A DNA stretch of 64,000 nt from Candidatus Tectimicrobiota bacterium (GTDB taxonomy: Bacteria > Tectomicrobia > Entotheonellia > Entotheonellales > Entotheonellaceae): assembly GCA_026005175.1 (NCBI GenBank), contig BPKO01000013.1, positions 1-64,000 on the forward strand, given 5' to 3'. A program made the translations under genes and the position numbers. Below, piece by piece: positions 19,339 to 32,724 of this stretch (positions within the stretch are counted from its first letter, which is position 1; the number at the start of each line of letters is the position of its first letter). The notes under the pieces are model-generated. The model saw only the letters and a list, made by a program, of their open reading frames with translations, was not told where the DNA came from and did not search any database.

Positions 19339-20447
19339 ATGACGGCAGCGCGGTTGACCGTGGACATTTACAAGCGCCTGGAGCACTTCCCCCTGCGCGT
19401 GCAGCTGCAAGCGGGCAGCGAGATCCTGGTGCTCTTTGGTCCTTCAGGAGCAGGCAAGAGCCTGACGCTGCACGCCATTGCCGGGCTGGTGACGCCGGAG
19501 CACGGCGAGATCTGCTTCGACGGCCACGTCTTCTTTCGCTACCGCCGCGGCGAGCCCAGTATCCACGTGCCGGCGCGCAAGCGGCGAGTGGGCTACGTTT
19601 TCCAGCACCTGGCGCTGTTTCCCCACCTGACGGCGCTGGAAAACGTCGCCTACCCCCTGTGGCGGCAGCGCCAGGGGCGCGAGCAGGCCCTGGCCTGGCT
19701 GGAGCGCATGCGCCTGGCGCACCTGGCCCACCGCTACCCGCACGAGCTCTCGGGGGGCCAGCAGCAGCGGGTGGCCCTGGCGCGGGCCCCCTGGCGGCAC
19801 AGCCGCGCCTTTTGCTCCTTGACGAGCCCTTCTCCGGGCTCGACGCGCCGGTGCGCGAGCAGCTGCAGCGCGACTTGCGCCGGCTGCAGCGCGAGCTCGG
19901 CCTGGTGGTGCTTTACGTTACCCACCACCTGGAAGAGGCCTTTGCCTTGGGCCACCGCCTGGCGCTGCTGCGCGACGGCCAGGTGGAGCAAGTAGGCCCT
20001 GTGGAGGACGTCTTCCGGCGCCCGGCCACCTCGGAGGCGGCGGCGCTGCTGGGCATCCGCAACCTGTTCCGCGCGCGCGTCGTCGACGCCTCGCCGGCTG
20101 GCCTGCTGCTCGACTGGGACGGCCTGCTGCTAGAGGCGCCGCTGCAGCGCGCCGCGGCGGGAGAGGCGGTCACGGCGTACGTGCGCCCCGAAGACGTGAA
20201 GATTCTCTATCCTGACCGGCCGCTGGGGCCTTCAGTGCGTGCCAACCAAGTCGAGGGGGTGATCGTGACACACCGAGGGCAGGGGAGCTTTCACACCCTC
20301 TACGTGGCCATCGCCAACGGGCACGAGATCGAAGTGCGCTTCCCGGCTTACGCCTACGTGCCCCTGCGCCTGGCGGCAGGCGAGCGGGTGCGGCTGTCGC
20401 TGCGCCGCGAAGGCGTGGTGCTGCTGCCCGCTAAACCGGTGGAATAA
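19339..20447 (+). CDS. modC: molybdate ABC transporter ATP-binding protein (one frame break)
   Basis: About 369 residues. Walker A is GPSGAGKS (residues 34-41), the Q-loop region reads VGYVFQHLALFPHLT, the ABC signature is LSGGQQQRVALARA, and Walker B (LLLLDEPFSGLD) follows after the break. The C-terminal third carries the TOBE-type regulatory domain usual in ModC and related importers (AYVRPEDVKIL). The frame breaks at a C run (19787-19791) between the signature and Walker B: two extra C, or one missing, restore ARALAAQPRLLLLDEP. Both halves fit one ordinary ModC, so sequence error is likely. Confidence 0.88.
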
Positions 20448-20509: not shown

Positions 20510-20680
20510 CGCAGGCACCGGGGTAGCCGGGGAAGTGCAGAGTATGGCCAAGAGCCTACCACTGGCGCAAGCCTCCGTGCAAGTCTGCCGGGTGGCGCTG
20601 CCTGCCGGAGCGGCGTAAGATAGGCGCAAGCAGGGCAGCCGCCGCTGCCTTGCTGCCCTTTCGAGAAGAAGGAGACCGAT

Positions 20681-21444
20681 ATGGAGCCCTACACGATTTA
20701 CGCCGTGCAGTACGCCCAGCGCGAGACCAATTCTACCGAGGTCTTCTACGGCGACTACCACAATACGCCCATGAAGATGGCTTACTACGTCTGGGGCCCT
20801 CAGCAACGGCGAGCACACCGTGGTCGTCGACTTGGGCTTTACCGAAGCCGTGGGCACCCGCCGCGGCCGGCAGTTCCTGCGCTGCCCGTCGCGTGGCCTG
20901 GCAGAAATCGGCATCGACTGCGCCCGCGTCGAACACGTCATCCTCACCCACTTCCACTACGACCACGTGGGCAACTACGCCCTCTTTCCCCGCGCCGTGT
21001 TTTACGTGCAAGACGACGAGATGGCCTTCTACACCGGGCGCTACGCCAACCAGCCGGCCTTTCGCCACTCGGTGGAAGTGGACGACATCGTGGCCCTGGT
21101 GCGCTACAACTACGAAGGCCGGCTGGTCTTTGTCGACGGGGACCAGGAAATCGTGCCCGGCATCTGCGTGCACAAAGTGGGAGGGCACACCGCCGGCATG
21201 CAGGTGGTTAGCGTGCACACCCGAGAGGGGCGGGCAGTGGTGGCCTCCGATGCCTCGCACTACTACCACAACTTCGAGAAGAACGTCCCCTTCATGGTCC
21301 TGCACGACTTGCCCGGGATTGTACCGCGCCTTTACCCGCCTGCGCGCCTTGGCCGAGCGGCCCGACCTCATCATCCCCGGACACGATCCGCTGGTGCTGG
21401 AGCGGCTGCGCCCGGTAGGGGAGGGCATCGTGGCCCTGGGCTAG
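20681..21444 (+). CDS. metallo-beta-lactamase-fold hydrolase, lactonase-like (two frame breaks)
   Basis: About 253 residues of the metallo-beta-lactamase superfamily. The zinc motif is LTHFHYDHVGN (HxHxDH), followed by the later ligands in GGHTAGMQ, SDASHYYHN and the C-terminal IPGHDP. The order and size match the AHL-lactonase-like N-acyl hydrolases, but the substrate is unknown. ATG 20681 follows AAGGAGA. Two breaks: one extra C at 20797-20799 (YYVWG to LSNGEHTVVVDLG) and one extra A at 21318 (HDLPG to LYRAFTRLR). Its neighbour downstream is one of the two paralogous unknown proteins. Confidence 0.8.
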
Positions 21445-21554: not shown

Positions 21555-23159
21555 GTGCCCAGCCAGACCCGCGGCGTCCCTGCCCTCTACCGCCGGCTCG
21601 AAGAGCGCATCCTGGCGCGCGACCAGCTTGGCGCCAGCCAGGTCTTCTACGACCTGGTGCGTGCCGGACGGCCCCTGCCCGAGCTGCTGCGCGAGACGGT
21701 GCGCATCCACGGCCCCTATACGCACGTGCCTTACCACCAGCGCCTCGACCAGGGCTTTGTGCGCTTTGTCAACAACGACCACTGCCTGCTCAGTGCCCGC
21801 ACCAGCCTGCGCCTGCCGGCTTTCTTGCCCTCTGAGCTGCACTACCTGCCCATGGCGCAGACCATCTGGTACGTGCCCACCGGCCTCGACCCCTGGAACC
21901 AGCTTTTGGGCAAAATGCCCGGCCACTACGCGCGCCGCACCTACCACCCGCTGCCCGATGCCCCGCCACCCCCGCCCCAGGTGCACTGGCCCGATCAAGA
22001 ACCGCGCTTCCTCGACGGCCCATACGAAGAGCGCCTCAACACCTGGCTCACCCTGGTGGAGCGCGGCCAGGTGCTCGAAGCCTACCGCGTCTTCCTGGGG
22101 CTTTTTGCCGAGCGCCGGCGGCGCCCGCAGCTCCTGGCGCACCTGGCCTTTGCCGGCCTCATCGACGTGCAGGACCGCATGCTCTACAACCGCTCGTACA
22201 CCACCGGCCACAAGGCTTACCGCGCCCGCGCCACCATCGAGCTGGGCGAGGCGGTGGGCTGGGAGCGCGCCCACCCGATCCTCTACGCCGGGGTTCCCGA
22301 CATGGCCGTGGGCCCGCGCTGGTACTCGGCGTACGAGATGGCCTGCCAGGTGAGCTGGACGCGGCTGGCAGAGGAAGAGGCCAGGCCGGCTTCCTCGCTC
22401 GACCCCAGCCCACCGGGGCCCCCCGAAGCGCGGCTGCTGGCCAACCGCACGCCCCTGACGCGCCGGGAGCGGCGGCGCCTGCTGCAAGCGCTCACCGAAG
22501 CCCACGAACCCGACTACATCGAGGAAATCACCGCCTTGCTGCGGCGTGGCAAGGACCCGCTGCAGCTTGTCGACACCTTGCAGGTAGCGGCGGCCAGGAT
22601 CCTGCTCGAGGTGGGCCAGCCGGGCAACTTCTCCATGCCCCAGCACGGCTACGAGTACACCAACACGCTGCGCTGGTTCTTCGACACCTTTGCCCACCCG
22701 CTGCGCCTGCGCTTGCTTTACGTCGCCGGCTCGTTCGTCAACCAGTGCGCCTGGTGGGTGCGCCACACCCCCGGCAACGGCGCCGCCGATGCGCGCCCGC
22801 CGCGCGGCGCTACCGACTTGGCCCCGCAGGAGCTGCTGCGGCGCCTCGACGCCGCCATGGTGGCGCTCAGACCGGCAGAGAGCGTGGCCTGGACGCGGGC
22901 CTATCTCAAAGCCGGCTACGACCGCAAGCCACTGCTGACCACCCTGGCGCTGGGGGCGGTGAAGCAAGGCAACGACCCCCACAACCAGGAAATCGGCCTC
23001 TGCCTGCTCGAGGACTACCTGCGCAGCACCGCCCCCGACCGCGATGTGCTGCTGCTTGCCTGCGCCCAGCACACCGCCGGCCACGTCAAGTACGGCGACC
23101 CGCTGGAGTGCTACCGGCGCTTTATGGAGGCCTTTGGCCTCAGCGCGCCGCTGGCGTGA
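21555..23159 (+). CDS. unrecognised 534-residue protein, paralogue of 29551-31104
   Basis: I do not recognise this family. It is soluble-looking, mostly helical by composition, with no signal peptide or membrane helix. Shared blocks with the protein at 29551-31104 are GPYTHVPYHQRL (53-64), NNDHCLL, WYVPTGLDPW, PGHYARR, GHKAYRAR (218-225), GWERAHPILYAGVPD (235-249), and a C-terminal HGYEYTNTLRWFF. Several conserved histidines (His57, His61, His76, His124, His219, His240) suggest metal or haem binding, which is inference. GTG 21555 is chosen for AAGGAG upstream and because the paralogy begins soon after. It has its own promoter and a stem-loop leader. The next gene, the SRPBCC-epimerase, starts 9 bases later. 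A proline-rich stretch (about 134-142) is unique to this copy. Confidence 0.85.
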   Translation: MPSQTRGVPALYRRLEERILARDQLGASQVFYDLVRAGRPLPELLRETVRIHGPYTHVPYHQRLDQGFVRFVNNDHCLLSARTSLRLPAFLPSELHYLPMAQTIWYVPTGLDPWNQLLGKMPGHYARRTYHPLPDAPPPPPQVHWPDQEPRFLDGPYEERLNTWLTLVERGQVLEAYRVFLGLFAERRRRPQLLAHLAFAGLIDVQDRMLYNRSYTTGHKAYRARATIELGEAVGWERAHPILYAGVPDMAVGPRWYSAYEMACQVSWTRLAEEEARPASSLDPSPPGPPEARLLANRTPLTRRERRRLLQALTEAHEPDYIEEITALLRRGKDPLQLVDTLQVAAARILLEVGQPGNFSMPQHGYEYTNTLRWFFDTFAHPLRLRLLYVAGSFVNQCAWWVRHTPGNGAADARPPRGATDLAPQELLRRLDAAMVALRPAESVAWTRAYLKAGYDRKPLLTTLALGAVKQGNDPHNQEIGLCLLEDYLRSTAPDRDVLLLACAQHTAGHVKYGDPLECYRRFMEAFGLSAPLA

Positions 23160-23168
23160 GGAGGGACG

Positions 23169-24557
23169 ATGCGGCCACGCCTCTTCGTGCGGCGCACGCG
23201 CTTGCCGGCAGCGGCGGAGGACGCCTTTCGCTGGCACGCCTGCCCCGATGCCCTGGCGCGCCTTGCGCCGCCGTGGCTGCCGGTGACGGTGCTGAGCCGC
23301 AGCGGCGGCCTGGAAGACGGCGCCCGCGTGGTCCTGGGCCTGCGCCGCGGCCCGGTACACTGGCGCTGGGTGGCCGAGCACCGCGACTGCCTCCCCGGGC
23401 GCCAGTTTTGCGACGTGCAGGTGGCCGGACCCTTTGCTTTCTGGGAACACACGCACCGCTTCGAGCCGGCCGGACCCGAGGCCTGCATCCTGGAAGACCG
23501 CATCCGCTACCGGCTGCCCTTTGGCCCGGGCGGCCAGCTCCTCGCCGGATGGCTGGTCGAGCGCCAGCTGGCGCGCCTCTTTGCCTACCGCCATGCGGTG
23601 ACGGCGCAGGACCTCGCCGCCCATGCCCCTTGCAGGGAGGGAAAGCCGATGCACGTGCTCGTCAGTGGCGCCAGCGGCCTGATCGGTTCGGCCCTGGTGC
23701 CTTTTCTCACCACCGGCGGCCACCGGGTAACGCGCCTGGTGCGCACCACCCCGCCGCCTGAGGGCGCCGTGGCCTGGAATCCGGACTACGGCGAGCTGGA
23801 AGCCAGCGCCCTGGAGGGCCTCGATGCCGTGGTGCACCTGGCCGGGGAGAACATCGCCCGCGGCCGCTGGACCCCGGAGAAAAAAGCGCGCATTCGCGAC
23901 AGCCGCGTGCACGGCACGCGCCTGCTGTGCGAAACCCTGGCCCGCCTGGAGCGCCCGCCGCAGGTGCTGGTCAGCGCGTCGGCCATCGGCTACTACGGCA
24001 ACCGCGGCGACGAGTTGCTGCGCGAAGAGAGTCCGCCCGGCGACGACTTCCTCGCCCAGGTGTGCCGCGACTGGGAAGCGGCAACCGCCCCGGCTGCTGC
24101 CCGCGGCATCCGCGTCGTCAACCTGCGCCTGGGGGTGGTGCTGAGCCCGCGGGGCGGCGCGCTGGCGCAGATGCTCACCCCCTTCCGCCTGGGCCTGGGC
24201 GGGGTGGTGGGCACGGGACGGCAGTACATCAGCTGGATCGCCATCGACGACGTGGTGGAGATCATTCACTTCTGCCTGCTCACCGAAAGCCTCAAGGGGC
24301 CGGTCAACGCCGTGGCGCCACAGCCGGTGACCAACGCCGAGTTCACCCGCACCCTGGGCCGCGTGCTGCGGCGGCCGACGCTGCTGCCGCTGCCGGCGGC
24401 GGTGGCCCGCCTGCTCTTTGGCGAAATGGCCGACGCCCTGCTCCTGGCCAGCACGCGCGTCGAGCCCGCCCGCCTGCTGGCCAGCGGCTACCGCTTTCGC
24501 TATCCGGAACTGGAAGGCGCCTTGCGCCACCTCCTGGGCAAACCGCGCGTGGCGTAG
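23169..24557 (+). CDS. SRPBCC domain fused to TIGR01777-type NAD-dependent epimerase
   Basis: 462 residues in two parts. Residues 1 to about 150 resemble an SRPBCC/START-like ligand-binding domain (a hydrophobic pocket fold). From Met161 the protein is an extended short-chain dehydrogenase: the nucleotide motif VSGASGLIGSALV, VVHLAGENIARGRW, SASAIGYYGNRGDE with the catalytic Tyr, and LRLGVVLSPRGGAL, typical of the YfcH/TIGR01777 sugar-epimerase-like family. Such fusions are known in bacteria, but the substrate is not. A plausible RBS-ATG lies inside at 23649 (GGAGGGAAAGCCG before ATG), so a separate epimerase product could also be made. It lies between the unknown-family gene and the glutamine synthetase-like gene on the same strand. 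Confidence 0.88.
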   Translation: MRPRLFVRRTRLPAAAEDAFRWHACPDALARLAPPWLPVTVLSRSGGLEDGARVVLGLRRGPVHWRWVAEHRDCLPGRQFCDVQVAGPFAFWEHTHRFEPAGPEACILEDRIRYRLPFGPGGQLLAGWLVERQLARLFAYRHAVTAQDLAAHAPCREGKPMHVLVSGASGLIGSALVPFLTTGGHRVTRLVRTTPPPEGAVAWNPDYGELEASALEGLDAVVHLAGENIARGRWTPEKKARIRDSRVHGTRLLCETLARLERPPQVLVSASAIGYYGNRGDELLREESPPGDDFLAQVCRDWEAATAPAAARGIRVVNLRLGVVLSPRGGALAQMLTPFRLGLGGVVGTGRQYISWIAIDDVVEIIHFCLLTESLKGPVNAVAPQPVTNAEFTRTLGRVLRRPTLLPLPAAVARLLFGEMADALLLASTRVEPARLLASGYRFRYPELEGALRHLLGKPRVA

Positions 24558-24579
24558 GGCGCTGCGGGAGGAAGACGCC

Positions 24580-25938
24580 ATGGAGACGCGCGATGTGGTC
24601 CGCCAGGCCATCGAGGCCGGCGTGCAGCTGGTCTTCTTCCTTTACTGCGACAACGGCGGCATCATCCGCGGCAAGGGCACCCACGTGGCCCGCCTCGAGC
24701 AGCGGCTGCGTACCGGCATCGGCCTTACCGTGGCCATGCAGGCGATGAGCGACATGGACCAGCTGCAGGCAGTGCCCGGCATGGGGCCGGTGGGCGAGGT
24801 GCGCCTGGTGCCCGACCCCCAGACGTTTACCGTCCTGCCCTATGCCCCCAAGCGCGCCGTGATGCTCGCCGACTTGCTCACCCTGCAGGGAGAGCCCTGG
24901 GGTGCCTGCCCGCGCAGCTTCCTCAAGCGCATGGTGCAGAAGGCGGCGGCGCAGGGGCTGCGCCTGCGTGCCGCCTTCGAGCCGGAGTGGACTCTGGCGC
25001 GCCGCCGCGACGACGGCACCGTGGTGCCCATCGACGACAGCCTGTGCTTTAGCAGCGTCGGCATGACCGCCGCCCAGGAGGTGGTCGACGCCATCGTGGC
25101 CGCCCTCGAAGCACAGGGGCTCGAGGTGGAGCAGTACTACCCCGAGCTCGGCCACGGCCAGCAGGAGCTCAGCATCCGCTTTGCCGACGCCCTGCGCGCC
25201 GCCGACAACCAGATCCTCTACCGCGAAACGGTGCGCAACGTGGCCTGGCAGCACGGCTACCTCGCCTCGTTTGCCCCCAAACCCTTTGCCGACCAGGCCG
25301 GCAACGGCTGCCACCTGCACTTTAGCCTCTGGGACCTGGCCGGAGAACGCAACCTCTTCTACGACCCCGAAGATCCCCTGCAGCTGAGCCAGACGGCTTA
25401 CCACTTCCTTGCCGGCGTGCTGGCCCACCTGCCAGCCCTGGTGGCCCTGACGTGCCCCAGCGTCAACAGCTACCGCCGCCTTGGCCCGCGCACCTGGAGC
25501 TCGGCCTTTGTCTGCTACGGCCCCGACAACCGCGAGGCCGCCCTGCGCATTGCCTCGCCATTCTGGGGGCAGGAGATGGCCTCGCTTAACCTAGAGCTCA
25601 AGCCGGCCGACGCCACCGCCAACCCCTACCTCGCCCTGGGCGGCCTGCTCGCCGCGGGGCTCGACGGCCTCGCGCGCGGCCTGCAGCCGGCCGAAGGACA
25701 GCGGGTGGACGTCGACCCCGCCACCTTGCCTCCGGAAGAGCTGGCCCGCCGCGGCATCCGGCGCCTGCCAGCCAGCCTGCCCGAGGCCATTGCCGCCCTG
25801 GAAAGCGACGCCACCCTCCTGGAGGCCCTGGGGCCAGCGCTGGCCACCTCGTACCTGGCGGTGCGGCGCGGTGACGCGGCGCTGTTTGCGTCGCACGACG
25901 AGGCATTCGAGCTGCGCCACCACTTCTACAAGTACTGA
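24580..25938 (+). CDS. glutamine synthetase-family enzyme (gamma-glutamyl ligase type)
   Basis: 452 residues of the glutamine synthetase family. The N-terminal beta-grasp part starts at FFLYCDNGGIIRGKG; the catalytic part has FEPEWTL, YYPELGHGQQELSIRFADAL, GNGCHLHFSLWD (metal/ATP region) and NREAALRIASP. Sequence and length resemble type III or gamma-glutamyl-amine ligases (GlnA3/PuuA-like, FluG C-terminal part) rather than housekeeping GlnA, and there is no clear adenylylation Tyr motif. ATG 24580 has GGGAGGAAG upstream. The amidohydrolase gene follows after 3 bases, the same pair of domains that is fused in FluG and plant nodulin-GS proteins. The reaction is probably ATP-dependent amide formation between glutamate and an amine. 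Confidence 0.9.
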   Translation: METRDVVRQAIEAGVQLVFFLYCDNGGIIRGKGTHVARLEQRLRTGIGLTVAMQAMSDMDQLQAVPGMGPVGEVRLVPDPQTFTVLPYAPKRAVMLADLLTLQGEPWGACPRSFLKRMVQKAAAQGLRLRAAFEPEWTLARRRDDGTVVPIDDSLCFSSVGMTAAQEVVDAIVAALEAQGLEVEQYYPELGHGQQELSIRFADALRAADNQILYRETVRNVAWQHGYLASFAPKPFADQAGNGCHLHFSLWDLAGERNLFYDPEDPLQLSQTAYHFLAGVLAHLPALVALTCPSVNSYRRLGPRTWSSAFVCYGPDNREAALRIASPFWGQEMASLNLELKPADATANPYLALGGLLAAGLDGLARGLQPAEGQRVDVDPATLPPEELARRGIRRLPASLPEAIAALESDATLLEALGPALATSYLAVRRGDAALFASHDEAFELRHHFYKY

Positions 25939-25941
25939 GCC

Positions 25942-27111
25942 ATGCGCCACCAAGCCGCCCTGGAGGCCTTCCTGGCCACCTTGCCGGTGCTCGACGGCCA
26001 CTGCCACCCGCCGCGCCGCCAGCCCCCGGCGAGCGCCGAAGCCTTCCAGCGCTTTTTCAGCGAAAGCGACGACCCGCAGCTGGCCGCCCGGCACGTGCCG
26101 CACAGCCTCTTCTTCCAGCACAGCCTGCAGCAGCTGGCCACCCTGCTGGACACCCCGGCCGAGGTGGCGGCGCTGCTCGAGCGGCGCCAAGCCCTGGGGC
26201 TGCGCGACTACCTGCACCTGCTGGTGCAGCGCAGCAACCTGCGCGGCTTGCTGGTGGACGACGGCTACCGGCCCGAGGCCAGCTACACCTGCGCCGAGCT
26301 GCAGGCCCTGCTCGCCGGCACTTCCTGCCGCGTCTGGCGCGTGCTGCGCCTGGAAACGCTGGCCGAACAGCTGCTGGCGGCGCACCCCGACTTTGCCGCC
26401 TTCCTCGACGCCTACCGCGCCGCCTTGCAAGAGCTGCGCGCGCAGGGCATAGTGGCCCTCAAGAGCATCATTGCCTACCGCACTGGCCTGGCCGTAGAGC
26501 CTCCGGACGCCAAGGCGGCGGCGCAGGCCTTTGCCCAGGCGCGGCAAGCGCTGGCCCGCGACGGCCGCGTGCGCCTGGCACACAAGCCGCTGCTCGACTT
26601 TTTGCTCGCCGTGGCCCTGGAGGCGGCAGCACAGCAGGGCCTGCCGGTGCAGCTCCACACCGGCTTTGGCGACCCCGACCTCGACCTCCTGCAAAGCAAC
26701 CCCTTGCTCCTGCGCCCCCTGCTGCACCGCGAGCCGGCCCCCCGGGTGCCCCTGGTGCTCCTGCACGCTTATCCTTACCTGCGCGAGGCCGCTTACCTGA
26801 GCAGCGTCTACGCCAACGTCTACGTCGACTTGTCGCTCGCCTTTCCCATGCTGCACCTTGCCGCCGAGCGCGCCCTGGAAGAGGTGCTGGGGCTGGCGCC
26901 GGTGTCCAAGGTGCTGTACGGCTCTGACGCTGCGGGCTTGCCCGACTGGCTGTGGCTGGGCGTCCTGGCCTGCCGCCGCGCCCTGGCGCGCCTCTTGGCC
27001 GCCTGGGTCGAGGCAGGGCTGCCCGAAGCCCAGGCCCGCGCCGTGGCCGAGGCCATCCTCTACGCCAACGGCTGCGCCCTCTACGGGGTGCCCCTGGACC
27101 CACTGCCATGA
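25942..27111 (+). CDS. amidohydrolase (FluG N-terminal domain type)
   Basis: 389-residue TIM-barrel amidohydrolase. It begins with the metal motif LDGHCHPP (His20 and His22 by position), contains KSIIAYRTGL characteristic of the FluG-type amidohydrolases, then LHTGFGDPDLDL, LHAYPYLREAAYLSS and the late LYGSDAAGLPDW with the conserved Asp. With the glutamine synthetase-like gene 3 bases upstream it forms a split version of the eukaryotic FluG protein. From that, the pair may make or hydrolyse gamma-glutamyl amides; this is inference. The stop overlaps the start of the phosphatase gene by 4 bases (ATGA). Confidence 0.88.
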   Translation: MRHQAALEAFLATLPVLDGHCHPPRRQPPASAEAFQRFFSESDDPQLAARHVPHSLFFQHSLQQLATLLDTPAEVAALLERRQALGLRDYLHLLVQRSNLRGLLVDDGYRPEASYTCAELQALLAGTSCRVWRVLRLETLAEQLLAAHPDFAAFLDAYRAALQELRAQGIVALKSIIAYRTGLAVEPPDAKAAAQAFAQARQALARDGRVRLAHKPLLDFLLAVALEAAAQQGLPVQLHTGFGDPDLDLLQSNPLLLRPLLHREPAPRVPLVLLHAYPYLREAAYLSSVYANVYVDLSLAFPMLHLAAERALEEVLGLAPVSKVLYGSDAAGLPDWLWLGVLACRRALARLLAAWVEAGLPEAQARAVAEAILYANGCALYGVPLDPLP

Positions 27112-27597
27112 GCGCCGTGCGCTGGGTGCTGTTTCTGTGCACCGGCAACTACTACCGCAGCCGCTTTGCCGAGCTGCTCTTCAACGCCCTGGCCGCCGCC
27201 CGCGGCCTGCCCTGGCGCGCCTTCTCGCGCGGCCTGGCCCTGGAGAAAGGGCGCCACAACCGCGGGCCCATGGCCCCCGTCGCCGTGGAAGCGCTGCGCG
27301 CCCGCGGCATTCCCTTGCAGGGAAGCGAGCGCCCCCCGCGCCAGGTGAGCGAAGACGACTTGCGGCGCGCCGCGCTGATCGTCGCCCTGGAGGAAGCCGA
27401 GCACCGCCCCTACCTGCAAGCGCGCTACCCCCGCCTGGGCCGAGCGCGTGGTGTACTGGCACGTCCGTGACACGCTGCCGCAGCCGCAGTACAATCCCCT
27501 GGACGTCATCGAAGCGGAAGTGCGAGGGCTGGTGGCAAAGCTAGAGGGCGAGGAGGAGCCGCCGTGTTCGACTTCGGAGGGGAAAGGCTGCGCCTGA
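27108..27597 (+). CDS. low-molecular-weight protein tyrosine phosphatase-like protein (one frame break)
   Basis: About 162 residues. The P-loop CTGNYYRSR fits CX5R(S/T) and starts at about residue 12, as in low-molecular-weight phosphatases and arsenate reductases. The C-terminal YNPLDVIEAEV may supply the general-acid region. The frame breaks at a C run (27428-27432): one extra C links EHRPYLQARYP to AWAERVVYWHVRD. After correction the frame ends at 27597, about 34 bases inside the DUF493 gene. Whether it dephosphorylates proteins or is a reductase cannot be decided. The typical second conserved cysteine two residues before Arg is replaced by Tyr-Tyr. Confidence 0.75.
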
Positions 27598-27827
27598 ACT
27601 ACCCGTGCCGCTGGGTGTACAAAGTCATCGGCTCGGGGCAAGAGCAAGTGCGCCAGGCCATTGACGAAGTGGTAGCCGGCTACGACTACACGGTCACCTT
27701 TTCCAACGCCAGCAAGACGGGAAAATACTGCTGCCTCAACGTCGAGCTCACCGTCGACAGCGAGGCCGTCCGCACCCACCTCTACCGGGCCCTCAAGCAG
27801 CACCCCCACGTGATCCTAGTGCTGTAG
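27564..27827 (+). CDS. DUF493/YbeD-family protein
   Basis: 87 residues of the DUF493 family: small ACT-like beta-alpha proteins of unknown function. The hallmarks are LNYPCRWVYKVIG at the start, SNASKTGKYCCLNVELTVDS in the middle, and HPHVILVL at the very end. The GTG start has GAGGAGGAG upstream and lies inside the end of the phosphatase gene, so the two are coupled. It ends 35 bases inside the convergent amidase gene. Confidence 0.85.
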   Translation: MFDFGGERLRLNYPCRWVYKVIGSGQEQVRQAIDEVVAGYDYTVTFSNASKTGKYCCLNVELTVDSEAVRTHLYRALKQHPHVILVL

Positions 27828-29232
27828 CCGGCCAGCGCCGGTGCCAGGAGGTGTGCTGCTCGTACGCGTAGGCCAGGCGCAGTATCGTGGCCTCGTCGAA
27901 GGGGCGGCCGGCGAGCTGCAGCCCGATGGGCAGCCCCTCGTTGCTAAAGCCGCAGGGCAGGGAGAGGGCCGGCAGGCCGGTGAGGTTGAAGGGGCGGGTG
28001 AAGCGGGCCAAGTTGGCCGCCACCACCACCTCGCTGCCGCCCAAGCGCACCACCGGCTCGTCGAGGCGCGGCGCCGGCAGCAGCGTCGTCGGCGTGGCCA
28101 GAGCGTCGACGCGCCGCAGCGCCTCGCCGACTTCCTGGCACAGCAGGGCGCGAAAGCGCTGCGCTTTCAGGTAGTGCGCCCCCAGCACCGTGCTGCCCAG
28201 CGCCAGCCGCAGGCGCACGTCGGCGCCGTAGTCCTGCGGCCGCGTGCGCAGCCAGGCCTCGTGCACGGCGTAAGCCTCAGTGACCATGATGGCCAGGGAG
28301 GCGCCGGGCACATCGCGCATCAGGGGGAGGTCGAGGTCTACGCAGGTCACGCCCAGCTCGCGCAGCACCGCCAGGGCGGCCTCCACAGCACGAGCCACCT
28401 GCTCGTCGAGCTGCTCGAAAAAGAAGGGGCGCGGCACGCCCAGGCGCAGGCCGCGCACCTCGCCGCGCAAGGCCCCGGCATAGTCAGGGACCGGCAGGCG
28501 GCGGGTAGTGGGGTCGGCGGGGTCATGGCCGGCAATGGCTTGCAGCACCAGGGCGGCGTCGGTCACGCTGCGGGTGAGCGGCCCCGGGTGGTCAAGCGAC
28601 CAGCAGAGGGGAAAGACACCGTGGCGGCTGACGCGCCCGTAAGTGGGCTTGAGGCCAACCACGCCGCACAGGGCAGCAGGAATGCGCACCGAGCCGCCGG
28701 TGTCGGTGCCCAGGGTGGCCATGGCCAGCCCGGCGCGGGTGGCCACCGCCGAGCCACCGCTTGAGCCCCCGGGAAGGCGCGTGGGGTCCCAGGGATTGCA
28801 CGGCGTGCCGTAGTGGGGGTTGATGGACGTGGCACCCCAGGCGAATTCGTGCAGGTTGAGGGTGCCCAGCAGCACGGCCCCGGCGTCTTCGAGGCGCTGT
28901 ACCACGGTGGCTTGCTGCTGCGCCACGTGCTGCGCCAGGATCTGCGAGCCGCAGGTCATGCGCACGCCGCGAATAGCAAAGAGATCTTTGACGGCCACGG
29001 GGATGCCGTGCAGGGGGCCGCGGTACTGGCCGCGGGCAATCTCCGCCTCGGCGCGCCGCGCCGCGGCCAGCGCCCGCTCGGGCAGCACGGTGAGGTAGGC
29101 CCGCAGGCGGTCGTTCTCCCGGGCGATGCGCTCCAGGTGCGCTTGTGTTACCTCCACCGGCGACACCTCGCGCCGCTGCAGCCGCGGCGCCAGCTCGGCA
29201 ATGGTAAAGCGGGTGAGTTCCTCAGCCGCCAT
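27793..29232 (-). CDS. amidase signature-family enzyme (GatA/AtzE-like)
   Basis: 479-residue amidase with an intact Ser-cisSer-Lys triad: Lys82 in IPVAVKDLFA, the serine pair in GGSSGGSAVAT (157-158), and nucleophile Ser181 in DTGGSVRIPAALCG. It hydrolyses an amide or, as GatA, supplies ammonia to tRNA-bound amino acids. ATG 29232 is preferred to the upstream in-frame ATG (29256) because AGGAGAG is correctly spaced. It overlaps the GatC-like gene by 11 bases. No gatB is in the window, so the pair may instead be an amidase with an accessory subunit, as in the AtzE-AtzG system for biuret or similar substrates. The gene's end overlaps DUF493 on the other strand. Confidence 0.9.
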   Translation of the reverse strand: MAAEELTRFTIAELAPRLQRREVSPVEVTQAHLERIARENDRLRAYLTVLPERALAAARRAEAEIARGQYRGPLHGIPVAVKDLFAIRGVRMTCGSQILAQHVAQQQATVVQRLEDAGAVLLGTLNLHEFAWGATSINPHYGTPCNPWDPTRLPGGSSGGSAVATRAGLAMATLGTDTGGSVRIPAALCGVVGLKPTYGRVSRHGVFPLCWSLDHPGPLTRSVTDAALVLQAIAGHDPADPTTRRLPVPDYAGALRGEVRGLRLGVPRPFFFEQLDEQVARAVEAALAVLRELGVTCVDLDLPLMRDVPGASLAIMVTEAYAVHEAWLRTRPQDYGADVRLRLALGSTVLGAHYLKAQRFRALLCQEVGEALRRVDALATPTTLLPAPRLDEPVVRLGGSEVVVAANLARFTRPFNLTGLPALSLPCGFSNEGLPIGLQLAGRPFDEATILRLAYAYEQHTSWHRRWPATALGSRGGAA

Positions 29233-29428
29233 CGCCCTCTCCTGGCAGGCAGGCAAAGCGCAGCGCCGGCTCTACCGCGGCCAGGTCCAGCGCCTCGAGC
29301 CGGTGCAGCTCGGCCAGCAGGGCTGCCGCCTGCGGCACGAGTTCCGCCAGCTCGGCATCGCCAAAGGGCAGCCCGGCCAGGGCAGCCAGCTGCCGCAGGG
29401 TTTCCAGGGTGACGGGGGACTCGGCCAT
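29222..29428 (-). CDS. GatC-like small subunit
   Basis: 68 residues in the GatC/AtzG mould: an N-terminal segment (VTLETLRQLAALAGLPFGDAE) and a conserved linker (LAAVEPALRF) of the kind that wraps around an amidase. It lies directly before the amidase gene with an 11-base overlap, as GatC precedes GatA. ATG 29428 is chosen over the longer frame (29470) because AGAGGAG stands before it and a promoter-like element overlaps the longer form's start. It follows an extended -10 motif at 29461-29469. Confidence 0.78.
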   Translation of the reverse strand: MAESPVTLETLRQLAALAGLPFGDAELAELVPQAAALLAELHRLEALDLAAVEPALRFACLPGEGDGG

Positions 29429-29460
29429 GAACGTCTCCTCTGTGGCAGGCATGCCGGCAC

Positions 29461-29469
29461 ATTGTACCA
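29461..29469 (-). promoter_or_regulatory. candidate extended -10 promoter for gatC-like/amidase
   Basis: TGGTACAAT on the minus strand, identical to the element before hyuA, and its -10 also ends 33 bases from the start codon. The repeated geometry makes it likely to be real. Confidence 0.45.
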
Positions 29470-29483
29470 CAGCCGCGGAGGCC

Positions 29484-29512
29484 TTGCCTCCGTCCAGGCC
29501 TTTTGCTATAAA
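29484..29512 (+). promoter_or_regulatory. candidate sigma-70-type promoter for the gene at 29551
   Basis: TTGCCT and TATAAA with a 17-base spacer. -35 matches four of six, -10 five of six. It is divergent from the amidase promoter, with a predicted start near 29519 and about 30 bases of leader. Confidence 0.6.
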
Positions 29513-29550
29513 GAGCCCGGACCGCGCAACGCCTTACGGGAGATCCCGCC

Positions 29551-31104
29551 ATGACCCGCCCCGATGCCGTGCACCTGCGCCAAATGGACGACTATATCCT
29601 CGACGGCAAGTACCACGAGGCCACCGAGCTCTTCTGCCAGCTGGCCACCGCCGGCCACCCCGTGCCCGACTTGGTGGTGCACGTGATGGAAACCGCCGCC
29701 CCTTACCTGCACGTGCCGGCGCACCAGAAGCTGCTGCCCAACGGCGAGTTTCGCAACGTCAACTACGACCATACCATTCTCGGCATTCGGGCCGGCATGC
29801 GCCTCATGCCTTACCTGTCGGACAAAGAGAAGTACCTGACCCTCGTCCAGGCCGTTTACTACGTGCCGCAGGGGCTCGACATCTGGTCGCAGCTCGACTG
29901 CGGGTTTCCCGGCCACTATTCGCGCGAGCAGGAGCGTTGCCCCGAAGACCAGATCCGCAAGGAGCTGCACTGCTACTTCGAGGATCAGGAGCCGCTGGTG
30001 GAGGGCTCGGTAGAAGAGCGCTTCCAGCGCCTGCTGTACGCCCTTACCCACGGCGACCGGGTGACCGGCTACCGCCTCTTCCTGGGGCTGGCGCAGCTGC
30101 CCGAGGTGCGCCGGCGCCTGGAGGACACCTTGCTCTTTGCCGCCATCATCGACCAGCAGGAGTTCAACTCCTTCCGCCGCGTGCGCCACATCGGCCACAA
30201 GGCCATCCGCATCCGCTCCATGTTCGATATTGCCCACTGGCTGGGCTGGGAGCGGGCCCACAGCTTTTTCTACGTCGGCGTGCCTGACTTGGCCACGCTG
30301 CCCATTTTTCACTCGCTCTATGACCACGCCAGCGTGGTGCTGGGCATGACGTTCAAGGGCGAGCAGTATACGCTGCACACCCGCAACACGGCGCTGCTCG
30401 ACCCCCAGCGGCAAGAGCGCTTCATCGGCCGCATCCTGGAAGGCGACCCCCTGGCGGTGAGCGAGGAGATCACCGCCTTGCTGCAGCAGGGCTACGCCCT
30501 GCGCAGCATCGCCGACACGGTGATGCTGGCCCACGCCCGCCACTGCGTGGAGAAGCTGCGCGCCCCTATTGCCTATACCGTGCCCACGCACAGTTTTGAT
30601 TACTGCAACGTCATCAACCACTGGCTGCGGGCGTTTCGCAACCCCCACCAGGCCAAGGCGGTCTACCTGGGGGCCTGGTTCGTCACCGACACCATCCGCG
30701 AAGTGGACTGGTATCCTGACGTGCCCGAGGTGGAAAAGCCCGACCCGGCGCCGTTTCGCCGCTGGGCCGACGGCCTGGCGCGGCGCCAGGTGCTGGCCGC
30801 GCTGGAGGAAGCCATCGCCGCCCAGGACGCCTCGCGCGCCATGGCCCTGGTGCAGTCATACGTGGAGCGCACCGCCGAGCGCGACGAGCTCATACGCCTG
30901 CTGGTGCACTGCGCCGGCAAGTTCCAGGGCGACGCCCACATCTTCCGCAATGCCCGCTCGATGATCGAGGAGTACACGGCGAGCACGTGCAGCGAGGCGC
31001 AGAAGAACGTCTTCTTTGTGGCCTGGGCCAAGTTCCTGGCGTTTTACAAAAAGCGCACCCTGTCGACAGCCTGCTATGACCTCTACCATCGCTACTTTGT
31101 CTGA
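29551..31104 (+). CDS. unrecognised 517-residue protein, paralogue of 21555-23159
   Basis: Same unrecognised family as the protein at 21555-23159: shared blocks PYLHVPAHQK (51-60), NYDHTILG, YYVPQGLDIW, PGHYSRE, GHKAIRIR (215-222), GWERAHSFFYVGVPD (232-246) and, near the C-terminus, THSFDYCNVINHWL. This copy lacks the proline-rich insert and ends with an extra C-terminal tail of about 80 residues (to DLYHRYFV). His54 and His58, His74, His122, His216 and His237 match those of the paralogue. No signal peptide or membrane helix. It has its own promoter and is divergent from the amidase pair. An acyl-CoA ligase follows 24 bases later, a hint of acyl or lipid metabolism. Confidence 0.85.
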   Translation: MTRPDAVHLRQMDDYILDGKYHEATELFCQLATAGHPVPDLVVHVMETAAPYLHVPAHQKLLPNGEFRNVNYDHTILGIRAGMRLMPYLSDKEKYLTLVQAVYYVPQGLDIWSQLDCGFPGHYSREQERCPEDQIRKELHCYFEDQEPLVEGSVEERFQRLLYALTHGDRVTGYRLFLGLAQLPEVRRRLEDTLLFAAIIDQQEFNSFRRVRHIGHKAIRIRSMFDIAHWLGWERAHSFFYVGVPDLATLPIFHSLYDHASVVLGMTFKGEQYTLHTRNTALLDPQRQERFIGRILEGDPLAVSEEITALLQQGYALRSIADTVMLAHARHCVEKLRAPIAYTVPTHSFDYCNVINHWLRAFRNPHQAKAVYLGAWFVTDTIREVDWYPDVPEVEKPDPAPFRRWADGLARRQVLAALEEAIAAQDASRAMALVQSYVERTAERDELIRLLVHCAGKFQGDAHIFRNARSMIEEYTASTCSEAQKNVFFVAWAKFLAFYKKRTLSTACYDLYHRYFV

Positions 31105-31128: not shown

Positions 31129-32724
31129 ATGTTCTTGCCCCTGACGCCGCTGCACTTCTTGCAGCGTGCCGCGCGGCTCTTCCCCACCAAAACGGCGGTG
31201 GTGGACGGCGCGCGGCGCTACACGTACGCCACCTTGCAAGAGCGCGTCCACCGCCTGGCCAACGCCCTGCGCCAGCTGGGGGTGGGCAAAGGGGACAAAG
31301 TGGCCGTGCTCTCTCCCAACAGCCACCGCATGCTGGAGAGCTTCTTTGCGGTGCCCCAGCTCGGCGCCGTGCTCACCCCCCTCAACTACCGCCTCACCAC
31401 CCCGGAGTTTGCTTACATTCTGGAGCACTCCGAGAGCAAGGTGGTGCTCGTCGACTGGGAGTACGCCCACCAGCTGGCGCCGCTCACGTCCCGGCTGGCC
31501 GGGGTGCAACACTACGTCTTGCTGCGCGACGAAGAACCCCCTACGGCGCCGCTGCCGGCTGAGGACTACGAGGCGCTGCTGGCTGCCGCCAGCCCCGAGC
31601 CGCCGCCGCCGGTCGAGCTTGCCGAAACCGACATTGCCACCCTCAACTACACCAGCGGCACCACGGCGCAGCCCAAAGGGGTGATGCTCAGCCACCGCGC
31701 CTGCGTCATCAACGCCATCAACTACATCGTGGCGCTTCACGTGCGCCCCACCGACGTCTACCTGCACACCCTGCCCATGTTCCACGCCAACGGCTGGGGC
31801 GGCATCTGGGCCCTGGCTGGCCTGGGCGGCACGCAGGTGTGCCTGCGCAAGGTGGAGGCGCAGGCGGTCTTCGAGCTCATGGAGCGCGAAGGGGTAACCC
31901 TGGCCTGCGCCGCGCCCACGGTGCTGGTGACCCTGGCCAGCTATGAGAAGGCGCGAGACTACCGCCTGGCGCCGGGCCTGCGCATCGGCACCGGCGGCGC
32001 GCCGCCGGCCGCCGCGGTGCTGCGCAACATGGAGGCGCTGGGCATCGAGGTCATCCACCTCTACGGCCTCACCGAGACCGGCCCCTTCCTCACGTCTTGC
32101 GAGTGGCAGCCGGCCTGGGAGGCCCTGGCGGTGGAAGAGCGCTACCGCCGCAAGGCCCGCCAGGGCATCGCCCAGCTGCTCACCGACGTGCGCGTCGTCG
32201 ACGCGCAGGGGCGCGAGGTGGCCTGGGACGGCAAGACCGTCGGCGAAATCGTCGCCCGCGGCAACAACGTCATGGAGGGCTACTACAAGCAGCCCGAGGA
32301 AACCGCAAAGGTGCTGCGCGGCGGCTGGCTGCACACCGGCGACCTGGCGGTGGTGCACCCCGACGGCTACATCGAGGTGGTGGACCGCGCCAAGGACGTG
32401 ATCATCAGCGGCGGCGAGAACATCTCTTCGGTGGAAGTGGAGGCCACCCTCTACGACCACCCGGCGGTGCTGGAAGCGGCGGTGGTGGGGGTGCCCGACG
32501 CCAAGTGGGGCGAGGTGCCCAAGGCCATCGTGGTGCTCAAGCCCGGGCAGCAGGCCACGGAGGAAGAGCTCATCGCGTTCTGCCGGGCCCGCATGGCCCA
32601 CTTCAAAGCCCCCAAGTCGGTGGAGTTCGTCGCCAGCCTGCCCAAGACGGCCACCGGCAAGATCCAGAAGTTCGCCCTGCGCGAGCGCTACTGGCAAGGC
32701 TACGACAAGCGCGTGCAGGGCTAG
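31129..32724 (+). CDS. AMP-dependent acyl-CoA synthetase (medium/long-chain type)
   Basis: 531-residue member of the ANL (AMP-binding) family, which activates a carboxylic acid to acyl-CoA at the cost of ATP. The P-loop motif is TSGTTAQPKGVMLSH; then YGLTETGP, the hinge region TGDLAVVHPDGYIEVVDRAK, and the C-terminal catalytic lysine motif PKTATGKIQKFALR. All conserved residues are present. ATG 31129 follows GGAGGAGG. It follows the unknown-family gene on the same strand and ends 4 bases inside the convergent PEGA-like gene. Confidence 0.95.
   Translation: MFLPLTPLHFLQRAARLFPTKTAVVDGARRYTYATLQERVHRLANALRQLGVGKGDKVAVLSPNSHRMLESFFAVPQLGAVLTPLNYRLTTPEFAYILEHSESKVVLVDWEYAHQLAPLTSRLAGVQHYVLLRDEEPPTAPLPAEDYEALLAAASPEPPPPVELAETDIATLNYTSGTTAQPKGVMLSHRACVINAINYIVALHVRPTDVYLHTLPMFHANGWGGIWALAGLGGTQVCLRKVEAQAVFELMEREGVTLACAAPTVLVTLASYEKARDYRLAPGLRIGTGGAPPAAAVLRNMEALGIEVIHLYGLTETGPFLTSCEWQPAWEALAVEERYRRKARQGIAQLLTDVRVVDAQGREVAWDGKTVGEIVARGNNVMEGYYKQPEETAKVLRGGWLHTGDLAVVHPDGYIEVVDRAKDVIISGGENISSVEVEATLYDHPAVLEAAVVGVPDAKWGEVPKAIVVLKPGQQATEEELIAFCRARMAHFKAPKSVEFVASLPKTATGKIQKFALRERYWQGYDKRVQG

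Follow-up and report, generated by a model that had tools for sequence, protein, structure and literature searches.

The stretch of DNA analysed here (the window; 64,000 nucleotides from a Candidatus Tectimicrobiota bacterium) contains two open and complete reading frames on the forward strand, encoding proteins of 534 aa (P1, 21555..23159) and 517 aa (P2, 29551..31104). The two proteins are homologues over their full length. They align end to end with 31-32% identity (E 2e-63), and a search of the bacterium's own genome with P1 returned only P1 itself and P2 (32% identity, residues 2-524, E 2e-63). The alignment contains the blocks GHKA-R-R and GWERAH---Y-GVPD as well as further ones, and eight histidines are identical between the proteins (H57, H61, H76, H124, H219, H240, H364, and H476 in P1 numbering), which bears out the original prediction that these are paralogues sharing blocks in the same order. 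They had also been assigned to an unrecognised family, and at the level of sequence this holds, as searches with each protein found no Pfam or NCBIfam family and no sequence relative in the PDB. P1 also had no relative in the plasmid collection.

Upstream of P1 there is a hydrolase of the MBL fold (Lactamase_B; 20650..21444, + strand), whose gene is apparently frameshifted across three frames. Nine bases after P1 begins a fusion of SRPBCC (Polyketide_cyc), NAD-dependent epimerase, and DUF1731 domains (23169..24557, + strand), and a split FluG-like pair consists of a glutamine synthetase (24571-25938) as its first half and an Amidohydro_2 protein (25942..27111, + strand) as its second. An AMP-binding acyl-CoA ligase (31129..32724, + strand) starts 24 bases after P2, and an amidase gene, from which P2 is divergent, is also among the neighbours. 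These domain matches broadly agree with the neighbours that had been named from the sequence (a lactonase-like hydrolase, an SRPBCC-epimerase, a FluG-like pair, and an acyl-CoA ligase). Judging from spacing alone, it is possible that the SRPBCC-epimerase fusion is co-transcribed with P1, and likewise the acyl-CoA ligase with P2. The claim that each of the two genes has its own promoter was not supported, as the only sigma-70-like site between 21200 and 31200 (at 27467) lies upstream of neither; because P2 is divergent from the amidase gene, it probably has a promoter that the sigma-70-like scan missed. Besides the MBL-fold hydrolase (20650-21444), genes for a molybdate-type ABC ATPase (19339-20447) and a low-molecular-weight phosphatase (27100-27544) appear to be split over reading frames in the window, and these frameshifts represent either assembly errors or decay.

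Distribution and conserved residues of the family

We built a profile from a six-member alignment and scanned the genomes of 84,980 species, one genome per species. Relatives are encoded at 207 loci, 80 of which were kept, and they occur in Rokubacteria, Acetobacteraceae and other alphaproteobacteria, Chloroflexota including Dehalococcoidia, and Entotheonella. In the 25 genomes searched whole there were one to four matching places per genome, some of them partial. This family, which counts its loci in the hundreds among relatives of Entotheonella, Rokubacteria, Chloroflexota, and alphaproteobacteria, has neither a name nor an assigned function. A maximum-likelihood tree of 79 proteins resolved three deep, strongly supported subfamilies, namely A (33 proteins, including P1), B (8, including P2), and C (38). 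Apart from P2, subfamily B is made up of proteins from alphaproteobacterial assemblies, with 62-65% identity. Homologues occur nearest to the window's genome in two 'Candidatus Entotheonella' assemblies (OX639990 and OY282375) of its own family, which carry two members each, one of A and one of C rather than one of A and one of B. P1 and P2 belong to two old subfamilies spread over several phyla. The duplication proposed in the original prediction is old, but it is not specific to the window's lineage, since members of both are found in several phyla and A is paired with C in the sister Entotheonella genomes. We infer that P2 is equally likely to have been acquired horizontally as to stem from an old duplication within the lineage.

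Synteny is not conserved, and the neighbours seen in the window do not recur around the relatives. Pooled neighbours of subfamily C (70 proteins) and of A and B together (77 proteins) include SDRs, luciferase-like monooxygenases, Amidohydro_2 proteins, 2OG-Fe(II)/TauD oxygenases, P450, enoyl-CoA hydratases, and transporters, and these gene contexts suggest a general flavour of oxidative catabolism rather than a defined pathway.

Conservation was counted over 63 aligned proteins of the three subfamilies, in which 38 positions are invariant. Five of these are histidines (H58, H74, H216, H347, and H463 of P2, equivalent to residues 61, 76, 219, 364, and 476 of P1; 63/63), and the others include P2 D201, Q203, K217, R220, R222, W233, Y241, D246, Y351, D461, and K501. 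Six conserved histidines had been counted in the original prediction, but that of the GWERAH block (P2 H237) is variable, being His in 49/63. The five invariant ones support the view that this is a conserved-histidine family that is probably metal-dependent. The residue three positions after P2 H463 is fixed in each subfamily, as Glu in A (28/28), Arg in B (8/8), and Lys in C (27/27).

Predicted fold and the questin oxidases

AlphaFold2 models of both proteins, built with 63-sequence alignments, are confident (pLDDT 91.9 for P1 and 91.6 for P2, pTM 0.92) and nearly all-helical; they are not fully independent, as one alignment was common to both. Foldseek candidates were re-aligned structurally, and for both models the top six solved structures were those of BTG13 (7y3w/x/y), AflY (8yxs), and PaD (8z4q/r), whose PDB titles read questin oxidase, non-heme iron dioxygenase, and hydroquinone dioxygenase. 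These matches have Z 12.8-15.6 over 335-345 residues with an rmsd of 4.1-4.8, and the next-best structures have Z 8.9 and 7.1 over ~100 residues. A PDB sequence search lists seven solved entries for the questin-oxidase family, and the top six are all among them. Plain Foldseek gave no significant E for either model and placed the relatives of BTG13 low in its ranking (8yxs, E 2.3 for P2), and no BTG13 relative was among the best 50 matches listed for P1. Although helical folds can give a Z of ~13 by chance, we find the match convincing because six of six structures come from one family, in two models. By overall predicted fold, P1 and P2 are members of the BTG13/questin-oxidase fold superfamily; we do not claim membership of PF14027. 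The original prediction of an undescribed enzyme family holds in that the proteins match no Pfam or NCBIfam family, but the fold is not wholly new, as it is predicted to be a remote relative of that of the questin oxidases and BTG13.

The C-terminal helical domain (P2 408-517; P1 420-529) resembles the C-terminal domain of the RarA/MgsA AAA+ ATPase (Z ~7, rmsd ~2.0-2.6, ~100 residues), and in P2 this region also resembles TPR/PPR-like repeats. Such likenesses would suit a helical-repeat protein with a structural or regulatory role, whose conserved histidines form no metal site and whose match to BTG13 is a generic helical resemblance. We consider this very unlikely, because the BTG13 match spans ~340 residues with all six top entries from one family, and because the invariance of five histidines and of many polar residues (GHKA-R-R, DPHNQ, NNDH) across three deep subfamilies is the pattern of an active site. 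A haem protein, as the original prediction had allowed, would fit the histidine-rich, all-helical character of P1 and P2, but Pfam, NCBIfam, and the structure search gave no haem-protein match and neither protein has a CxxCH motif, so that the suggestion finds no support and is highly improbable.

The link to the questin oxidases rests on fold and on the order of the histidine motifs, since sequence profiles do not detect it. PF14027 matched neither P1 nor P2 at E up to 10, none of the 63 homologues at E up to 1, and nothing in the window's own genome, and hhalign comparisons with 7 or 14 bacterial questin oxidases gave probabilities of about 0.5-5%. Bridging the profiles through two sister families (D and E, described below) and loci L130-L132 was also attempted; short motif matches were seen, with no statistical support. 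The invariant histidines lie in motifs that are ordered as in questin oxidases, with a pairing made partly by eye. HMMER alignments show H296-x-x-T299 and H374-x-x-K377 in BTG13. The H-x-x-T motif is found in D, E, and questin oxidases, and acidic-x-H-x-x-K in subfamily C, D, one E member, many questin oxidases, and BTG13 (H374, K377). Some weak matches pair motif 1 of the family with motif 3 of the questin oxidases, which may reflect internal pseudo-symmetry or a different motif register. The iron site of BTG13 is presumably formed by four histidines and a carboxylated Lys377. At the position of this lysine there is Glu in P1 (DPHNQE) and Arg in P2 (DAHIFR); it is Ser in rhizobial questin oxidases, so the lysine is not universal there.

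A PF14027 questin oxidase with an apparently shortened C-terminus is encoded in another genome of the same family as the window's (G001, L009:1369-2286), and the window's genome has none. On Rhizobium plasmids, the neighbours of bacterial questin oxidases are amidohydrolases, CocE/NonD hydrolases, or FAD oxidoreductases, and in the same set (L092-L096) a questin oxidase from a Streptomyces plasmid has an alpha/beta hydrolase next to it. Amidohydrolases thus adjoin bacterial questin oxidases, and Amidohydro_2 proteins also occur near members of subfamily C.

Sister families D and E

The profile of subfamilies A-C gave weak matches in four genomes, of which three represent a family that we call D (~485 aa, one ended by the contig) and one represents a family that we call E. 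The D proteins (L098:469-1926, L100:398-1852, and L118-L122) are about 485-517 aa in length and unnamed, and the first E member (L097:1023-2759) has 578 aa and an N-terminal Rieske domain. After members were added, hhalign aligned A-C with E at a probability of 99.6 (E 4e-24, 438 columns), A-C with D at 98.3 (E 1e-14, ~430 columns), and E with D at 99.1 (E 7e-19). The histidines equivalent to P2 H216, H347, and H463 are kept in A-C (32/32), D (7/7), and E (18/18), except for H347 in two E members. H74 is also present in D (7/7), and E has no equivalent of H58, with most of its members also having none of H74. Further motifs of D are DDH, DVH, and EMHAYK. No relative of D was found in the plasmid collection, and an alpha/beta hydrolase gene follows the D gene in L100 and L099.

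The Rieske [2Fe-2S] domain of E is complete (Pfam E 1e-16), and its CxH and CxxH motifs are invariant; Pfam detects no such domain in P1 or P2. Rieske [2Fe-2S] domains commonly feed electrons to iron oxygenases. Members of family E are frequent on plasmids from haloarchaea, cyanobacteria, Priestia/Metabacillus, Sinorhizobium, Microvirga, and Paraburkholderia (42-47% identity), where their annotation does not go beyond Rieske (2Fe-2S) protein or the like, and near-full-length members were found in several genomes of another 290. The E loci that we collected (L097:1023-2759, L101-L108, and L123-L131) come from haloarchaea, cyanobacteria, bacilli, proteobacteria, and Chloroflexota, and genome G115 has an adjacent pair of E genes (C1:902889-906454). 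In 5/8 plasmid loci of E there is an alpha/beta hydrolase at most a few kb away, and one of these is annotated as 2-hydroxy-6-oxohepta-2,4-dienoate hydrolase, a name for a hydrolase of ring-cleavage products.

Proposed function and comparison with known systems

We consider it likely that P1 and P2 are mononuclear non-heme-iron oxygenases, soluble and all-helical, and that they are remote members of the BTG13/AflY/PaD fold superfamily. This reading is favoured by the six top fold matches from one family, the five histidines invariant in 63/63, and the homologous Rieske-fused family E, and further by the order of the histidine motifs, the neighbours with a flavour of oxidative catabolism, and the ring-cleaving activity of fungal members. 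The fungal enzymes of the questin-oxidase family are ring-cleaving dioxygenases, and their hydroquinone substrate is made by a partner reductase (PMC9890505). Against it stand the lack of a profile link to the questin oxidases, the non-significant Foldseek E, the chance that a helical fold gives Z ~13, the Glu or Arg in place of BTG13's lysine, the absence of H58 and mostly of H74 in E, and the unconserved synteny.

In such an oxygenase, the histidines of motifs 1-4 (P2 H74, H216, H347, and H463) would bind iron in a site shaped by H58 and by the subfamily-specific residue three positions beyond H463 (A, Glu; B, Arg; C, Lys), and Glu or Arg at the lysine position would tune the iron. Ferrous iron would then activate O2 to attack an electron-rich ring or enol, as in BTG13-type enzymes, and a substrate that we guess to be phenolic or of the hydroquinone type would be oxidised and perhaps cleaved without 2-oxoglutarate. 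P1 and P2 would take electrons from the reduced substrate or from a separate donor, and E from its fused Rieske domain. The same fold and metal site could instead serve another reaction without O2 chemistry, as a histidine-rich metal-dependent hydrolase, lyase, decarboxylase, or isomerase (Zn, Mn, or Fe), and the replacement of BTG13's carboxylated lysine by Glu or Arg would then reflect a changed metal or chemistry. The subfamily-specific invariant residue at this position, the hydrolases and amidohydrolases nearby, and the lack of a consistently adjacent ferredoxin or reductase are consistent with this alternative, which we nonetheless regard as unlikely given that the nearest solved folds are titled dioxygenases and that the fusion of E to a Rieske domain implies electron delivery. 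Placing the family beside the BTG13-type dioxygenases gives it a testable activity and would take deep into the bacteria a type of enzyme that is mostly known from fungi.

In a broader proposal that could go either way, A-C, D, and the Rieske-fused E may together constitute a single large, unnamed superfamily of non-heme-iron oxygenases whose catalytic domain is all-helical and histidine-rich. It would include a new Rieske oxygenase architecture, with the Rieske domain on a BTG13-like fold, present in archaea and several bacterial phyla. Its members are presently annotated only as 'Rieske protein' or 'hypothetical'. If the proposal is true, E would represent a second scaffold for catalysis in Rieske-driven oxygenation, and an unexpected one.

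Compared with known systems, the questin oxidases (PF14027; BTG13 7Y3W, AflY 8YXS, PaD 8Z4Q) resemble P1 and P2 in predicted fold (~340 residues, Z 13-16) and in the order of histidine motifs, and subfamily C shares the acidic-x-H-x-x-K of BTG13. They differ in that A-C have no detectable profile similarity to them or PF14027 match, an extra invariant H58 and GHKA-R-R block, and, at the lysine of BTG13, Glu in P1 and Arg in P2. Family E (~580 aa; WP_266080305.1, WP_208648181.1, BAZ78429.1) is homologous to A-C by profile over ~430 columns with three of the five histidines, but it has the N-terminal Rieske domain and H-x-x-T rather than H-x-x-[DE] in motif 3, and its C-terminal domain is likewise unnamed in Pfam. 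Family D resembles A-C in conserving H74, H216, H347, and H463, with H-x-x-K in 6/7, and is distinguished from A-C by a different N-terminal block (PPGHHGGPLHP) and from E by having no Rieske domain. The catalytic part of classical Rieske non-haem iron oxygenases is a helix-grip domain. Their Rieske domain is shared by the sister family E only and not by P1 or P2, and the catalytic part here is a predicted histidine-rich helical domain rather than a helix-grip domain.
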